Origin: a virus
Direction: 5' to 3' (one strand)
Virus record (IMG/VR): IMGVR_UViG_3300009027_000025
Coordinates: 1 to 27,247 of that record
Length of the DNA stretch: 27,247 bases
Position 1 is the stretch's first letter. The number at the start of each line of letters is the position of its first letter. The notes below the pieces were generated by a model. It worked only from the letters and a program-made list of their open reading frames with translations. It searched no databases and was not told where the DNA came from. This document shows positions 13,734-17,977 of this stretch, one piece after another. A program made the position numbers and the translations under genes.

Positions 13734-14120
13734 TTAGTTTGTTAGTCCGACATCGGACTTAGGGATTGCATACACTTTGGGTTTACCATTCTCAGTGTAT
13801 ACAGAGATAGCTTGCACCTCAGTCACTGACTCACCAGTGTCAGCGAATACAAACGTATCATTCTCGTATGGGTTGTATGTGACTGGTCTGCCATGACCAC
13901 GAATAGCAATGCCATCACGGAAGCCAGCAGTGCCAACGGCAAAGGCATGAACATTCTTCTTGCCCTCACGCCGCACCTTGGCTTGCCCGGCAGGACGCAC
14001 AACAAACTTTGCGTCATACATTGTGAACGCAGTAACGTGCTGTTGAACACGTCCAGTCTTGCGGTCTTGTAGTGACCATTTCTTTTTGTGTAGGTTCCAG
14101 TAAAGTCTATACTTACCCAT
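13734..14120 (-). CDS. Conserved phage protein of unknown function (128 aa)
   Basis: Start MGKYRLYWNLHKKKWSLQDR at ATG 14120, with GGAG upstream and an 8-nt overlap with the preceding gene; the longer frame to 14255 lacks such a site. The blocks NLHKKKWSLQDRKTGRVQQH and KVRREGKKNVHAFAVG resemble a family I know from many phage genomes without an assigned activity. The C-terminus, KSDVGLTN, is encoded by one copy of the AGTCCGACATCGGACT dyad, so that element here overlaps coding sequence. Confidence 0.7.
   Translation of the reverse strand: MGKYRLYWNLHKKKWSLQDRKTGRVQQHVTAFTMYDAKFVVRPAGQAKVRREGKKNVHAFAVGTAGFRDGIAIRGHGRPVTYNPYENDTFVFADTGESVTEVQAISVYTENGKPKVYAIPKSDVGLTN
13744..13759. repeat. 16-bp perfect dyad, copy e
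   Basis: AGTCCGACATCGGACT: 7-bp perfect inverted arms around CA. This copy lies in the last codons of the 128-aa gene (reading KSDVGL) and 33 nt upstream of the start of the 137-aa gene. It is one of five exact copies in 3.6 kb. See the findings for interpretation. Confidence 0.9.
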
Positions 14121-14265
14121 AGTTTTTCTCCTGCATTGTACGCTTTGCATTACGAGCCGCCTTGCGGTCACGCTTCCAGTTGTCACGCTTTGGATTAGCA
14201 GTCTTACGCACTGGCAATTTCTCAAAGAGTGACAAGTCATTCCAATCGTGGTCAAACTCAGTCAT
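14113..14265 (-). CDS. Small basic hypothetical protein (50 aa)
   Basis: Reads MTEFDHDWNDLSLFEKLPVR and continues with a strongly basic half (KTANPKRDNWKRDRKAARNA). ATG 14265 gives the recurrent 8-nt overlap (ATGACTGA) with the 46-aa gene. An in-frame GTG at 14289 with AAGGA 8 nt upstream is a credible alternative, adding 8 residues. The basic second half suggests RNA or DNA binding. No family recognised. Confidence 0.55.
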   Translation of the reverse strand: MTEFDHDWNDLSLFEKLPVRKTANPKRDNWKRDRKAARNAKRTMQEKNYG

Positions 14266-14398
14266 TATCTTTTCGTGTTTTGTTTTCACGGTCTTGTTCC
14301 TTTTTGCGATTGTATTTCTTTTTGTCTGGCACAACGGCTGTCCTGCGGCGTGACTGTGCCACTGCCTTCGCCACAGGATTGATAGGTCTGATACGCAT
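14258..14398 (-). CDS. Small highly basic protein (46 aa)
   Basis: Begins MRIRPINPVAKAVAQSRRRT and ends KKYNRKKEQDRENKTRKDND. About a third of residues are Lys or Arg and there is no hydrophobic core, so it is probably a disordered nucleic-acid-binding peptide. CGGAG lies before the ATG, and a 16-bp dyad sits 13 nt upstream of the start, making this the first gene of a likely transcript. Its stop overlaps the next start by 8 nt. Confidence 0.6.
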   Translation of the reverse strand: MRIRPINPVAKAVAQSRRRTAVVPDKKKYNRKKEQDRENKTRKDND

Positions 14399-14411
14399 TG
14401 TAATCTCCGTT

Positions 14412-14427
14412 AGTCCGACATCGGACT
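14412..14427. repeat. 16-bp perfect dyad, copy d
   Basis: Exact copy of AGTCCGACATCGGACT, ending 13 nt before the ATG at 14398 and just upstream of its CGGAG ribosome-binding site. On the minus strand it follows TATACT, a possible -10 element, so it would fall near the transcript start. Confidence 0.9.
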
Positions 14428-14434
14428 TGTCTAG

Positions 14435-14495
14435 TATATCTAAGTAACAATATATACTTCACTAAAGTATCAGTATATATGTTACATAAGATATA
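14435..14495. repeat. Imperfect 24-bp AT-rich inverted repeat
   Basis: Left arm TATATCTAAGTAACAATATATACT and the reverse complement of the right arm, TATATCTTATGTAACATATATACT, match with one compensating insertion. They flank a short centre that contains another inverted pair, ATACTT/AAGTAT. The repeat fills the gap between the 233-aa gene and the 46-aa gene, directly upstream of dyad copy d. It could be an operator or a bidirectional terminator; there is no clear T-run. Confidence 0.6.
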
Positions 14496-14505
14496 CATAA
14501 GAGGT

Positions 14506-15207
14506 TTAGCAGTCAATCACAAAGCCTGACGTATCTTTTTTAGCTTTGCCCTTGGCAATCAAGCCAACGACTACACCCTTCGGGTCAAGAAAGCGCAAGT
14601 CATCCTTGTCGCCATCAATGACACGCAAGCCACGGAATGTATCGGGCAGCTTGTCACGGAATACCACAGCCATGTTGACACCTGTCTTGACCACAGCCAT
14701 GACCACAGCATCAGCATACTTCATATCGGCTTCGCTGTATGACAAGGTGATATGGTAGTTGTCAGGCAACTTTTGATAGGCACGTTTGATTACTTTAGTG
14801 TAATCATAAAACTGTGCATCAGGATAATTTGGTGCCAGCTTGATAGCGTCACCCTTGTCATCTGTGCCACCCAGACGGATACACGGCGTGATGCCGTTCT
14901 TGAGTTGGCGGCGAATGAATGTCTCAATGTCTTTGTTCAAGGCATCATAGAACCCGATAGGGTCAGACAGCATCCACATAGTCTTGCGTTCACGACCACG
15001 TTGCACAGCGTTCATAGCACCACGCCCTGCCGTATTGAGGCAACCGACATGGCACTTGGCTGTCTCAGCCATAGCGCATAGGTTATGCACCTTGCCCTTG
15101 AACATGGTCTTGAACGGCTTGAGATAGCGGATAGCTGTCACATATTCTGAGCCATCACCCTTGATTGTCTTGGCATTATTGCCAACGCCTAAGATTTGGT
15201 AAGTCAT
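14506..15207 (-). CDS. Gp88-like phage protein (233 aa)
   Basis: ATG 15207 with GGAG upstream gives MTYQILGVGNNAKTIKGDGS. A cysteine cluster, LCAMAETAKCHVGCLNTAGR (about 43-62), is followed by QRGRERKTMWMLSDPIGFYD and a segment with CIRLGGTDD. This C-x6-C-x3-C plus AGRG and R-x-G-T-(S/D)D layout resembles the phage gene product 88 family (mycobacteriophage Gp88-like), whose function is unknown. The cysteines suggest a metal or iron-sulfur site. The second half (YADAVVMAVVKTGVNMAVVF) looks like an alpha/beta domain. Family assignment is from memory of the motif. Confidence 0.65.
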   Translation of the reverse strand: MTYQILGVGNNAKTIKGDGSEYVTAIRYLKPFKTMFKGKVHNLCAMAETAKCHVGCLNTAGRGAMNAVQRGRERKTMWMLSDPIGFYDALNKDIETFIRRQLKNGITPCIRLGGTDDKGDAIKLAPNYPDAQFYDYTKVIKRAYQKLPDNYHITLSYSEADMKYADAVVMAVVKTGVNMAVVFRDKLPDTFRGLRVIDGDKDDLRFLDPKGVVVGLIAKGKAKKDTSGFVIDC

Positions 15208-15211
15208 AGTG

Positions 15212-15418
15212 TTACTCCGTAACAATGGTTGCAGTAAAGTCATTCGATAGCCAACGTATATCACCAGTCTCAAGAGACTGCAAGCGGAATGTACCAGTAG
15301 GCCATTCGGGTATACGCTTGGGTAGGTCAAGCACCTGCCAAAACTCGCCGTGTTCATTCACACGGTTTTTGCCATGACGGGTCTTGCCTTGTAGTTTAAC
15401 AATCTTTCCGGTTTGCAT
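15212..15418 (-). CDS. Small beta-rich hypothetical protein (68 aa)
   Basis: Start MQTGKIVKLQGKTRHGKNRV at the third of three consecutive ATGs; GCGGAG lies 7 nt upstream. The rest (GEFWQVLDLPKRIPEW, TGTFRLQSLETGDIRWLS) looks like a small beta barrel of SH3 or KOW type. It overlaps the 54-aa gene by 23 nt and ends 4 nt before the Gp88-like gene. No family recognised. Confidence 0.6.
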   Translation of the reverse strand: MQTGKIVKLQGKTRHGKNRVNEHGEFWQVLDLPKRIPEWPTGTFRLQSLETGDIRWLSNDFTATIVTE

Positions 15419-15560
15419 CATCATTCTCCGCTTGGCTAATGTCTGTAATAACAGCATTGCCATCATCATCCGTGTCCATAAGATACAAGCCACCGTCAAA
15501 CCTGAAAGGTAGACCAGTGATGGCATAGTATTTATCACAAAATTTATCCAATTTTGACAT
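15396..15560 (-). CDS. Small acidic hypothetical protein (54 aa)
   Basis: Reads MSKLDKFCDKYYAITGLPFR and ends DISQAENDDANRKDC. The DTDDDGNAV segment is Asp-rich and could be a loop or a Ca-binding turn. It starts on the preceding stop (TAATG) and overlaps the next gene by 23 nt. No family recognised. It fills an otherwise unexplained gap between two longer genes. Confidence 0.55.
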   Translation of the reverse strand: MSKLDKFCDKYYAITGLPFRFDGGLYLMDTDDDGNAVITDISQAENDDANRKDC

Positions 15561-15832
15561 TACACCCACTCCATATCATAGGCATCCTCAAGCCAACGCA
15601 TAGCCGTAGCTATGTCACTGGCACCACAGTCCATGCAAGCATTGATTGCACGGTCTTCCTGCTCACGTTCCCAGCGCAAGTCATCCTCAAGCTGACGCTG
15701 TAGCATAGCTACTTCCCACTCAAGGTCAGTCACTGACCAACGGTCATAGTCTATGCCACGAGGACGTACACCGTGTACATCCTTGAACAAATCCCACAAT
15801 GTTTGTATCAATTCATCTTTACGATTTTGCAT
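15560..15832 (-). CDS. Hypothetical protein (90 aa)
   Basis: Begins MQNRKDELIQTLWDLFKDVH and has a helical middle (LEWEVAMLQRQLEDDLRWER), probably a coiled coil, then a CMDC pair near residue 67 and an acidic end. The DVHGVRPRG motif followed by a W-S-V-x-x-L-E segment recurs in small phage proteins I have seen, without known function. CGGAG precedes the ATG and a 16-bp dyad sits 19 nt upstream, so it heads a transcript unit. Confidence 0.65.
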   Translation of the reverse strand: MQNRKDELIQTLWDLFKDVHGVRPRGIDYDRWSVTDLEWEVAMLQRQLEDDLRWEREQEDRAINACMDCGASDIATAMRWLEDAYDMEWV

Positions 15833-15851
15833 ATCAAACTCCGTTTGGTTA

Positions 15852-15867
15852 AGTCCGACATCGGACT
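15852..15867. repeat. 16-bp perfect dyad, copy c
   Basis: Exact copy of AGTCCGACATCGGACT, 19 nt upstream of the 90-aa gene start and directly before its ribosome-binding site. A 12-bp inverted repeat lies just beyond it. Confidence 0.9.
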
Positions 15868-15886
15868 AAGTTAGTAGTGTATATAA

Positions 15887-15922
15887 GTAAATACACTTTC
15901 ACTATGTTTCAAGTGTATTTAC
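15887..15922. repeat. 12-bp perfect inverted repeat with 12-nt loop
   Basis: GTAAATACACTT and AAGTGTATTTAC are perfect inverted arms around a 12-nt loop. A third partial arm, AGTGTAT at 15876-15882, can pair with ATACACT of the left arm instead, so two mutually exclusive stems exist. It lies in the gap after the 80-aa gene stop. The arms share the ACACTT/AAGTGT motif with the array at 17.8-17.9 kb. No T-run follows on the minus strand, so an operator or attenuator is more likely than a simple terminator. Confidence 0.7.
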
Positions 15923-15932
15923 GTTATTCACA

Positions 15933-16175
15933 CTAAAGCAAATTTTTGTCAAGCATCCTTTGCTTCAAGTCAAGCAAGGCTTGCATTTGTGCCTCACGCT
16001 TCAGCTTCGCTTCATACTCAGCTTGCATAGCTTCAGCTTGACCAGTCACAAAGCACCGAAACTCAGGCCGTGTCTCAGGCTCATATGACCGGCTGAAAGC
16101 CTGTGTATCCATAGCCGCCCAGCTTGAACGAACAGGCTTGTGGCGACCCATTGGGGTGATGAATTTACGAGCCAT
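15933..16175 (-). CDS. Hypothetical protein with C-terminal coiled coil (80 aa)
   Basis: Starts MARKFITPMGRHKPVRSSWA at ATG 16175, which overlaps the preceding stop (TAATG) and has ACGGAG upstream. The second half is a long charged helix (AEAMQAEYEAKLKREAQMQA) likely to form a coiled coil. The longer frame to 16244 runs into the membrane-protein gene and is not used. No family recognised. Confidence 0.6.
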   Translation of the reverse strand: MARKFITPMGRHKPVRSSWAAMDTQAFSRSYEPETRPEFRCFVTGQAEAMQAEYEAKLKREAQMQALLDLKQRMLDKNLL

Positions 16176-16342
16176 TATGACAACTCCGTTGCAATGATTA
16201 CCCAGCCACCGACAAAGCAAGCCACACAGCCAAGTGCAACCCAACCCATACCCGGCACACCAGCCGCTAGTGACATGACAGACAGCAGTCCAATGACTGC
16301 ACTGGTGACGATTAGAAACAAGGCGATGATAAAATCAATCAT
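16175..16342 (-). CDS. Two-span small membrane protein (55 aa)
   Basis: Begins MIDFIIALFLIVTSAVIGLL; the first hydrophobic helix spans about 3-26 and the second (WVALGCVACFVGGWVIIAT) about 34-52, joined by a short GVPGMG turn. Almost the whole protein is membrane-embedded. It could be holin-like or an envelope-modifying early protein; the lysozyme lies in the other arm, so lysis is less likely. CGGAG is upstream of the ATG and a 16-bp dyad sits 21 nt before it. Confidence 0.65.
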   Translation of the reverse strand: MIDFIIALFLIVTSAVIGLLSVMSLAAGVPGMGWVALGCVACFVGGWVIIATELS

Positions 16343-16363
16343 ATTCAATACTCCGTATTGTTA

Positions 16364-16379
16364 AGTCCGACATCGGACT
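16364..16379. repeat. 16-bp perfect dyad, copy b
   Basis: Exact copy of AGTCCGACATCGGACT, 21 nt upstream of the two-span membrane protein start. It lies between that start and the terminator-like hairpin at 16394-16414. Confidence 0.9.
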
Positions 16380-16393
16380 AGTGAAAAGGTAGA

Positions 16394-16414
16394 CTGTAGG
16401 GGATTACCCTACAG
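16394..16414 (-). terminator. Hairpin over the stop of the 212-aa gene, terminator-like
   Basis: CTGTAGGG and CCCTACAG form an 8-bp perfect stem with a 5-nt loop. The stem includes the stop codon of the 212-aa gene (stop at 16404-16406). On the minus strand TCTACCTTTT follows, only a weak T-run, so it may terminate or attenuate transcription rather than end it fully. It is also the leftmost member of the hairpin-dense tract. Confidence 0.45.
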
Positions 16415-17042
16415 CCTCAAATGGGACAACTTCGTTGTTCTGCTCAATCATGCCAATGGCATTTGCCATGGCAATCTTGAAGTCAGCAAGGCTGACCTCA
16501 TTAAGTTCTACTTGCAGTAGAACCTCAAGAGCCAAATCTTCAGCAGTCTTTTTAGACTGTGGTACAGCTTCGCTGGACTTATCTTCGATAGCCAGAACCT
16601 CTGGCTCATCAGCTACGATAGTAGCTTCAAGGACTGGCTCATCTTCAACCTTTGGGTTGACGATTTTGTCCACTGCTTTCAGCAGATCCTTCATGTGGCA
16701 AATCGTAGATTTCTTGCCGAGCAAATCGTTTTCAACGATTACATGGAAGTTCTCAAAGAACTTCATGGCTTCACTACGGCGTTGCTTTGCAACGGTATGA
16801 AGGTTGGCATTCTTCAGCAAAGCTGAATCAGTCCGGCTACCGCCGGATTCAGTCCGAAGCCGGACAAGGATTTCACCAAGGGTGAACCAGAAACCAGCAA
16901 ACTCACAGAGTTTCTTGAAGCGATTGACATCACCTTTGGTGATTGACTTGTCCCAACGGGACAATACCAAGCCTTTGGCTTCATTTGTGTTTGGTGCTTC
17001 AGCAAGCTGAATGGCGAAAGATTTTTTGATTGAGTTTTGCAT
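16404..17042 (-). CDS. Hypothetical protein encoded by hairpin-dense DNA (212 aa)
   Basis: The first gene of the leftward arm. It begins MQNSIKKSFAIQLAEAPNTN; residues 1-110 are basic and helical (NRFKKLCEFAGFWFTLGEIL), 120-165 are acidic and Pro/Val-rich (KVEDEPVLEATIVADEPEVL), and the end is helical. No known domain. AGAGG lies upstream of the ATG. Its coding DNA is a near-continuous series of perfect short inverted repeats, one about every 30-40 nt, which must constrain its codons heavily. An early phage regulator or host-takeover protein would fit the position (inference). Confidence 0.7.
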   Translation of the reverse strand: MQNSIKKSFAIQLAEAPNTNEAKGLVLSRWDKSITKGDVNRFKKLCEFAGFWFTLGEILVRLRTESGGSRTDSALLKNANLHTVAKQRRSEAMKFFENFHVIVENDLLGKKSTICHMKDLLKAVDKIVNPKVEDEPVLEATIVADEPEVLAIEDKSSEAVPQSKKTAEDLALEVLLQVELNEVSLADFKIAMANAIGMIEQNNEVVPFEAVG

Positions 17043-17303
17043 TTCGGTTCCTCTTATCTATCTTTAGGTTTTATAGGGATATAACCCTTTCACTACGTTC
17101 AAGGGGCTATATACCTTAAAACCGTAAGAAGATAGTTAAGGTTTGGGGTTGAAGCCTTGTGTGTGATCCTCTGCCCAAGCCGTTTCGCCTACGGTTGCAG
17201 CTATCTTCGATAGCGAAACTCGTGCGCTAAACTCGTGACACATAGCGAGGCTTGGCAGATTGTGGTAGCTGGTATGACTATCACCTTCAGTGATAGGGGG
17301 TGT

Positions 17304-17319
17304 AGTCCGACATCGGACT
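17304..17319. repeat. 16-bp perfect dyad, copy a
   Basis: Exact copy of AGTCCGACATCGGACT, the only copy not next to a supported start codon. It lies about 260 nt upstream of the 212-aa gene start and among the mini-hairpins. Confidence 0.9.
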
Positions 17320-17747
17320 TGTGGTTCACCTTTGGTGAAAAGATTAGATGCATCAACCTTGTAACTTCGTTACAAATCTGTATTGTTGGACTTTTACAGT
17401 CATACTTCGTATGGCAACTGATACTATAACAGTTGTTTACAACTGAATTGCCGGATTACTTACTGCATATTCTATGCAATATCAAGGGCTTACTCAGATG
17501 GCTCCCTAATGAGGCGGCTGGTTGCGCATAATGCAGAGGCATACACGCCTTAGATGAGGGGGCAGGCAGGAGCCACCGGGGGGTAGCGTAGATATGTATA
17601 CACAGAAATACACAGATCAGGTAAATTGATTGTTAACCACAAGAGCAACTGTCACTACCTATATGCACAAGCATTGTGCAACTGCCTAAATAATAGGCAA
17701 CTGTAAGGGGGTGTATGGACCATTTGAACTATTTTGCAAAAGGGGGG

Positions 17748-17776
17748 TTGACAGCCTATAAAAAATCTGATATAAT
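17748..17776 (+). promoter_or_regulatory. Consensus sigma-70 promoter, rightward
   Basis: TTGACA (17748-17753), a 17-nt spacer and TATAAT (17771-17776): a perfect match to the bacterial housekeeping promoter in both boxes and spacing. The start of transcription would be about 17783, roughly 195 nt before the first right-arm gene. It is the strongest promoter I can see in the window and would be read by host RNA polymerase. I see no phage RNA polymerase gene here. Confidence 0.85.
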
Positions 17777-17791
17777 TATGTATAACTAAAC

Positions 17792-17928
17792 TCACTTAAA
17801 GTGATACACTTAAATGTTTATATAATAATTCTTAAAAAACTTATTAACTATATCACTTAAATGTACATAAGTTAGTCCTTACTAAATTTTCTTTGTTAAT
17901 GCACTCTAAGTGATAACACTTATAGTGT
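17792..17928. promoter_or_regulatory. Operator-like array of ACACTT/AAGTGT dyads
   Basis: Downstream of the promoter are TCACTTAAAGTGA (17792-17804, a 13-bp dyad), ACACTTAAATGT (17806-17817), CACTTAAATGT (17854-17864), AAGTGATAACACTT (17908-17921) and the nested ACACTTATAGTGT (17916-17928). Together these give four or five related sites in about 135 nt. Their position just after the transcript start suggests repressor or activator binding, or an RNA leader structure. No regulator gene is identified in this window. Confidence 0.6.
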
Positions 17929-17977
17929 ATCCCTACGTGCAAAGATTATTCGTGCTATACAAAGAAAGTTCTTGACA

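Follow-up and report, generated by a model that had tools for sequence, protein, structure and literature searches.

The virion RNA polymerase of phage N4 uses three hairpin promoters, which have perfect 5-7-bp stems with GNA-type triloops and act as single-stranded DNA. Single-strand initiation sites (those of phage G4 and of the phiX174 type, primosome assembly sites and the mitochondrial OriL) are stem-loops of the displaced strand near an origin which serve for priming or helicase loading, and they are one or a few in number and of defined sequence. Many perfect inverted repeats, with gains and losses, have been described in the protein-coding genes of Nematomorpha mitochondria, where they are scattered and have a mean of 43 bp with arms up to 142 bp (PMC6649704). 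Template switching is a general mutational process and also gives hairpins with perfect stems, covarying arms and inverted loops (PMC8794818, PMC8604942).

The window studied here (the whole stretch of DNA analysed, 27,247 bases) is from a marine phage of HMO-2011 type and holds a tract of perfect mini-hairpins that can be compared with each of these systems. Its stems and triloops resemble those of the N4 promoters, whereas it comprises 20-50 sequence-unrelated hairpins, many of them inside genes, and no virion RNA polymerase was found. It is like the single-strand initiation sites in the role proposed for it, but it is a graded field of dozens of hairpins without a common sequence. Unlike the Nematomorpha palindromes, its hairpins have stems of 6-7 bp and loops of 2-5 nt and lie in one place beside one protein family; unlike the products of template switching in general, they occur in a single region of a single phage lineage and are linked to a gene. 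HMO-2011 (a Puniceispirillum phage) and the Roseobacter phages CRP-1 and CRP-345 have the tract, the P212 protein and the leader element all in common with the window. We know of no phage element in which DNA is constrained by secondary structure over kilobases, as it would be here if the tract is selected.

Setting and census of the hairpins

The polymerase encoded in the window has 84.7% identity to that of Puniceispirillum phage HMO-2011 and carries a DnaJ-type zinc insert. The tract sits where the leftward (minus-strand) early and replication operon begins, immediately to the left of a divergent control region (Table 1). A DnaB-type helicase and a family-A polymerase, and probably also a primase, are encoded by the phage itself, and the leftward operon with the tract also includes a tyrosine recombinase gene. 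The AT-rich region with repeated motifs beyond the rightward promoter may possibly be an unwinding or initiator region.

The sequence-only reading had listed 23 perfect hairpins (stem of 6 or more, loop of 3-5), and each one was found at its position; it had counted fourteen 3-nt loops, and the recount gave 15 of the 23. Two hairpins beyond that list, at 16899 (aaactcACAgagttt) and 17304 (agtccgACATcggact), bring the tract to 25. That the tract crosses from a gene into non-coding DNA was also borne out, with 14 of the 23 listed hairpins starting inside the gene and 9 outside it. About one hairpin had been expected by chance, and 1000 dinucleotide shuffles of the tract gave a mean of 0.96 (largest 6) against the 25 present. 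Two further controls named by that reading, codon shuffling and the rest of the same DNA, gave low counts too, so that its own grounds for rejecting the tract did not apply: 50 synonymous-codon shuffles of the gene averaged 1.04 hairpins (largest 4), where the gene itself has 15, and outside 15-18 kb the count in a 1306-nt stretch of the window never exceeds 5. Taken together, 67 homologous genes have 486 hairpins, against 57 after synonymous-codon shuffling. The same scan found at most 3 per 1306-nt stretch in T7 and at most 8 in the first 20 kb of N4.

The extent of 1.3 kb holds for the peak and fails as a limit, since it tops a longer gradient; the window has about 1 hairpin per kb in general, rising to 8-9 at 15-16.5 kb and to 19-21 at 16-17.5 kb. 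Similarly, the claim that the stems are unrelated and form no repeat family stood for most stems, with one family as the exception, the dyad AGTCCG-N4-CGGACT, of which five exact copies lie from 13744 to 17319. Copies of REP or mobile palindromes share sequence, whereas the stems of the tract, save for this dyad, do not. The dyad sites lie between early genes at 13744, 14412, 15852, 16364 and 17304 (16 nt each), with a variant at 16851, and in relatives all copies switch together (AGTCCA..TGGACT, TGTCCA..TGGACA, TGACGA..TCGTCA). They change jointly, as would be expected of the operators of a regulator that co-evolves with them.

Table 1. Positions of the tract, its hairpins and the neighbouring elements in the window
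Feature	Position	Strand	Basis or remark
AT-rich region, repeated CACTTAAA-type motifs	17793..17930		also in HMO-2011
Perfect sigma-70 consensus promoter, TTGACA-17-TATAAT	17748..17776	+	reads right; right-hand limit of region; also in HMO-2011
Tract core, 25 perfect mini-hairpins	16394..17699	-	hairpin scan, shuffles
Hairpin, stem 6 loop 5	17683..17699	-	hairpin scan
Hairpin tgcacaaTGCttgtgca	17664..17680	-	stem identical in HMO-2011, L007, L008, L009
Conserved hairpin-free block, GTGGTTAACA..CTGATCTGTGTA..TGTATACAT..CCCCCC	17558..17641	-	tract reference point; in 67/67 tract loci
Hairpin tgcataGAAtatgca	17464..17478	-	hairpin scan
Hairpin, stem 6 loop 4	17430..17445	-	hairpin scan
Hairpin ttgtaacGAAgttacaa	17359..17375	-	L007 counterpart is ttgcatcGAAgatgcaa
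Hairpin ttcaccAAAggtgaa	17325..17339	-	hairpin scan
Hairpin agtccgATGTcggact	17304..17319	-	member of AGTCCG-N4-CGGACT dyad family
Hairpin ctatcacTGAAGgtgatag	17278..17296	-	hairpin scan
Leader element, CACGAGTTTAGCGCACGAGTTTC, variable hairpin, TGCAACCGTAGGCGAAACGGCTTGGGCAGAGGAT	17166..17237	-	conserved, covarying; found in tract loci
Hairpin gctatcGAAgatagc	17200..17214	-	apex of leader element; replaced entirely in relatives
Long imperfect hairpin	17050..17132	-	directly upstream of 212-aa gene; folds in window and HMO-2011
212-aa gene (P212 family), first gene of leftward operon	16404..17042	-	15 hairpins inside; family only in tract-bearing phages
Hairpin ttgtcccGTTgggacaa	16948..16964	-	hairpin scan
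Hairpin atcaccAAAggtgat	16929..16943	-	hairpin scan
Hairpin aaactcTGTgagttt	16899..16913	-	absent from earlier list
Hairpin ttcaccCTTggtgaa	16872..16886	-	hairpin scan
Hairpin tccggcGGTAgccgga	16832..16847	-	hairpin scan
Hairpin ttcagcTTTgctgaa	16813..16827	-	hairpin scan
Hairpin cgttgcAAAgcaacg	16780..16794	-	hairpin scan
Hairpin gaagttctTTGagaacttc	16746..16764	-	hairpin scan
Hairpin aatcgttGAAaacgatt	16724..16740	-	hairpin scan
Hairpin tcaaccCAAAggttga	16645..16660	-	hairpin scan
Hairpin agctacTATCgtagct	16611..16626	-	hairpin scan
Hairpin agccagaGGTtctggct	16590..16606	-	hairpin scan
Hairpin cagtctAAAAagactg	16544..16559	-	hairpin scan
Hairpin gttctactGCAagtagaac	16505..16523	-	hairpin scan
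Hairpin gtcagcCTTgctgac	16482..16496	-	hairpin scan
Hairpin ctgtagggTAATCccctacag	16394..16414	-	at end of 212-aa gene
Hairpin caatacGGAgtattg	16346..16360	-	Shine-Dalgarno-like GGA in triloop, before next gene
Thinning shoulder of tract along leftward early operon	13744..16393	-	hairpin scan; same decay in relatives

The tract, P212 and the leader element in related phages

The isolates HMO-2011, CRP-1 and CRP-345 and more than 60 environmental contigs have the same tract at the same place, where the leftward early operon begins, and its presence in cultured phages means that it is no assembly artefact. In CRP-1 the hairpins per kb along the tract are 12, 6, 7, 5, 2, 2 and so on. Among 48 loci fetched by the P212 protein, the mean per kb is 0.4-0.6 at distances beyond 1 kb upstream of the gene; it reaches 9.4 in the leader and 11.6 and 10.2 over the gene region, and then drops from 5.6 to 2.5. 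With the conserved block as the reference point, the density climbs steeply some 100 nt beyond it and falls off over 3.5 kb; overall the thinning extends over 3-4 kb. HMO-2011-type phages are described as dominant and widely spread in the sea (PMC9038755), and hence the feature is common in nature, although it has gone unnoticed in the literature searched; the open-access literature searched on this phage group makes no mention of hairpins, stem-loops, palindromes or inverted repeats.

The tract is lacking in CRP-2, CRP-603, CRP-207, CRP-3 and HTVC033P, and CRP-2 has its host strain in common with the tract-bearing CRP-1. Relatives without P212 and the leader element, CRP-2 included, have no tract. 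A hairpin peak is still present 300-400 nt past the block in P212-lacking relatives, and in homologous downstream segments the P212-bearing and P212-lacking phages have hairpins alike beyond about 1.4 kb, so that the contrast between the two groups rests on the leader and the first gene. Two side observations concern the tract-lacking phages: mini-hairpins are fewer genome-wide than in shuffles (29 against 48 in L095, which is CRP-2, and 32 against 42 in L096, which is CRP-603), and a DNA methylase gene is located in the early region of CRP-2, CRP-603 and CRP-207.

P212 is a divergent family (A1, 18-79% identity). Searches with the 212-aa protein gave no family in Pfam and PHROGs and no match by sequence in the PDB. 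Its predicted structure is all-alpha (pLDDT 76), and the predicted fold had no match in the PDB; the structure search returned the HMO-2011-like homologue and one weak viral match, Orf4 of Leptospira phage LE1 (E 0.04). No P212 relative was detected in 84,980 bacterial and archaeal species genomes at the sensitivity used. Within the phage collection P212 occurs in HMO-2011, CRP-1 and CRP-345 only, the same isolates that have the tract. The contig searches, run with single family members as queries, led to the same association, the tract being present in 48 of the 48 loci fetched by the protein. A search with the DNA pattern of the leader element, which is independent of the protein, found the tract in every contig with a P212 match, at 2.5 to 17.5 per kb; P212-bearing loci overall range from 2.5 to about 18. 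The apparent exceptions, L041, L044 and L115, have a distant P212 homologue (hhalign E 2.9e-6, probability 88%) together with the densest tracts of all. P212 is proposed to be a hairpin binder.

The apex hairpin of the leader element is wholly replaced between phages while its frame is kept. Over all cap types the consensus RNA fold of the element is weak, whereas covariation is clear at one cap size, where 16 sequences gave 97.8% of cells paired, with two-sided cells numbering 32 where shuffles gave 12. The conserved block is proposed to be the promoter and/or origin core. It is also present in several tract-poor relatives without P212, and therefore the tract, together with P212 and the leader element, behaves like an optional module beside a more general control block; phylogenetic inertia may share in their linkage alongside functional linkage. 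By our own unscored comparison, 9-mers in the block (TTAACCACA, GTATACACA) differ from the DnaA box consensus at a single position.

Single-stranded DNA as the probable folded molecule

Only loops of 2-5 nt are enriched in the tract. Across 22 tract-bearing loci, 390 distinct hairpins were counted against 46 after shuffling, and the enrichment by loop size is 6.9x at 2 nt, a maximum of 15x at 3 nt, 7.3x at 4 nt and 3.9x at 5 nt, with about 1-2x at 6 nt and more. Stem lengths concentrate at 6-7 bp and collapse at 8, few stems being of 8 bp or more. Coding sequence contains about half of the window's tract hairpins and many of those in relatives. Compensatory change, which the sequence-only reading had suggested looking for in homologues, was found: two-sided changes that keep the pair number 439 against 103 that break it, these pairwise counts between relatives being of non-independent events, and tract-poor relatives have no clear excess of such pair-keeping double changes. 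The tract is shaped by structure and not by sequence. Exactly inverted triloops were also seen on identical stems, for example between L053 and L146 and between L129 and L146 (GGT/ACC, GAA/TTC).

C-GNA-G triloops are unusually stable in DNA. They had been noticed on the minus (operon-sense) strand, and the counts across tract loci agree, with GNA to TNC at 70:18; the loop-closing pair on the sense strand is C-G rather than G-C at 110:16. The non-coding leader alone gives 29:11 for the loops and 66:6 for the closing pair on the same strand. DNA folding energies do not differ between the strands, and the strand bias is thus drawn from the loop and closing-pair counts. Since a double-stranded cruciform is not expected to be strand-biased, single-stranded DNA of the operon-sense strand is the best reading, and the folded molecule appears to be DNA rather than RNA.

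The sequence-only reading had offered, among other explanations, a structured single-stranded region for a replication origin or primer sites. The single-stranded part fits best, in view of the 2-5-nt loops, the GNA and C-G strand bias, the adjacent block and the nearby GC-skew minimum. The part concerning an origin did not stand equally: the cumulative GC-skew minimum lies near the tract (54,249 in HMO-2011 and 53,982 in CRP-1) and coincides with the switch in gene orientation, which GC skew also follows. The minimum and the AT-rich repeats fit an origin without proving one.

Our tentative explanation, possible and put forward with reserve, is that the tract may be a zone kept for single-stranded DNA folding where leftward replication, early transcription or both begin. 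When a fork, displacement loop or R-loop moved left from the block, it would expose the operon-sense strand, which would be both the lagging-strand template and the non-template strand of the early operon, and the one that leading-strand synthesis going left from the block would displace. The exposed strand would collapse immediately into mini-hairpins, and these would keep the duplex open, limit re-annealing and provide structure-specific landing sites to load or prime the phage DnaB-type helicase and primase; P212, encoded within the tract, would bind the hairpins. The decaying hairpin field on the operon-sense strand fits an exposure that is rarer with distance. A displaced strand held open, with structure for loading P212, helicase or primase, is, we infer, the most economical functional reading. 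The pairing kept in the hairpins over evolution and their constant place beside one uncharacterised protein gene point to an undescribed device acting on single-stranded DNA. The fuller claim is doubtful, namely that P212, a graded field of dozens of sequence-unrelated mini-hairpins and a composite leader structure together make up such a device to open, hold and prime the displaced strand, with the hairpins selected for shape alone, even inside genes. Several findings speak against the single-stranded zone: the skew minimum falls at the switch in gene orientation, folding energies are alike on the two strands, P212 matches no recognisable family and gave no convincing fold match, the same-host CRP-2 does without the tract, codon phase is ignored as it would be by a passive process, hairpin density varies widely among P212 loci, and P212-lacking relatives show a hairpin peak. 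If the tract is selected, several kilobases of coding and non-coding DNA are constrained by secondary structure rather than by sequence, with a dedicated protein, and the cultured CRP-1 (with the tract) and CRP-2 (without it), both on one host, would be an accessible system for studying displaced-strand handling in a double-stranded DNA virus.

Competing explanations

The main rival is an origin by template switching, which we consider rather unlikely. It holds that the region is often single-stranded or recopied, and that fold-back template switching makes and perfects palindromes and inverts loops with no function; P212 phages would simply have the replication mode that lies behind the hairpins. 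Template switching is known to homogenise the arms of inverted repeats and to invert their spacers (PMC8604942, PMC8794818), and the palindromes in Nematomorpha mitochondrial coding sequence have tentatively been put down to it (PMC6649704). The sequence-only reading had raised such correction of quasi-palindromes, and part of it survives. Between relatives, 10 of 163 pairs of stem-identical hairpins show an exact loop inversion, and 5 of these are among the 11 triloop pairs in which all three bases differ; the hairpins, examined for signs of building at synonymous sites, show no preference for codon phase, and they decay with distance from a fixed point. However, the null for loop inversion has a mean of 3.5 and a maximum of 12, so the signal is weak overall. 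The evolution of the stems also argues against it: in close relatives (flanks at least 90% identical) there are 63 one-sided stem changes, far above the compensated two-sided ones, with few multi-base runs confined to one arm, and stem divergence is about half that of the flanks. The strict size limit, the link to a protein family and the conserved structured element are all unpredicted by it. If the tract is a mutational scar, it would be a strong natural record of the sites of single-stranded DNA and template switching in a phage genome.

An RNA-level function is less probable still, and we regard it as improbable. According to it, the leader and first gene are a highly folded early mRNA whose folding shields the transcript, blocks Rho or regulates translation, much as had been suggested from the sequence. 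The tract does begin near the presumed leftward start and follow the transcript, the RNA of the leader is better folded than its shuffles (z -6.8), and several covarying helices make up the structure of the leader element. Shine-Dalgarno-like sequence lies in loops, and 39 of 53 GGA-triloop hairpins have an ATG within the next 14 nt (at 16346-16360 in the window and at homologous sites in relatives). If RNA were the selected molecule, G-U would be tolerated, and this is not clearly so in these stems: single stem changes between relatives give G.T 225 against A.C 187, the near-perfect hairpins in the 212-aa gene 8 against 16, and the leader element has no G-U pair; a modest G.T preference was seen in a smaller first sample and downstream of the 212-aa gene. 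The sense RNA shows no stability advantage over the antisense once the offset seen in shuffles is allowed for. Moreover, none of 49 leader tetraloops is GNRA, an Rfam search of 13-19 kb gave no match at gathering score (two sub-threshold chance matches were returned), and the enrichment extends to 2-nt loops but not to those of 6-8 nt, which are ordinary in RNA. The folded-mRNA explanation is accordingly disfavoured.

Only a small chance is given to some other DNA-level role of a region that enters or is replicated first, such as protection from nucleases or recombination, a pause in injection, counter-defence or regulation by the tyrosine recombinase; the early-region location and the recombinase gene in the same operon speak for it.

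Single-stranded hairpin promoters of the kind read by the N4 virion RNA polymerase, acting as many weak promoters along the early operon, are very improbable, for although the geometry is that of the N4 hairpin at 557-573 (AAGAAGC-GGA-GCTTCTT, found by the same scan) and C-GNA-G loops recur, six large HMO-2011 proteins gave no polymerase match, a PF00940 search was without a match (its controls were silent too), most genes have their hairpins within coding sequence and not at their starts, and N4 itself is without such a tract and shows little loop preference. N4 was also considered as a second case of the tract and set aside, its excess being mild and genome-wide (L165, L167; 130 against 55 in shuffles) and slightly higher in the first 5 kb.

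Elsewhere in the window, the gene at 21742-22812 matches in position and size the gene for a methanesulfonate monooxygenase-like (Rieske) protein of HMO-2011, and it is possibly an auxiliary metabolic gene.
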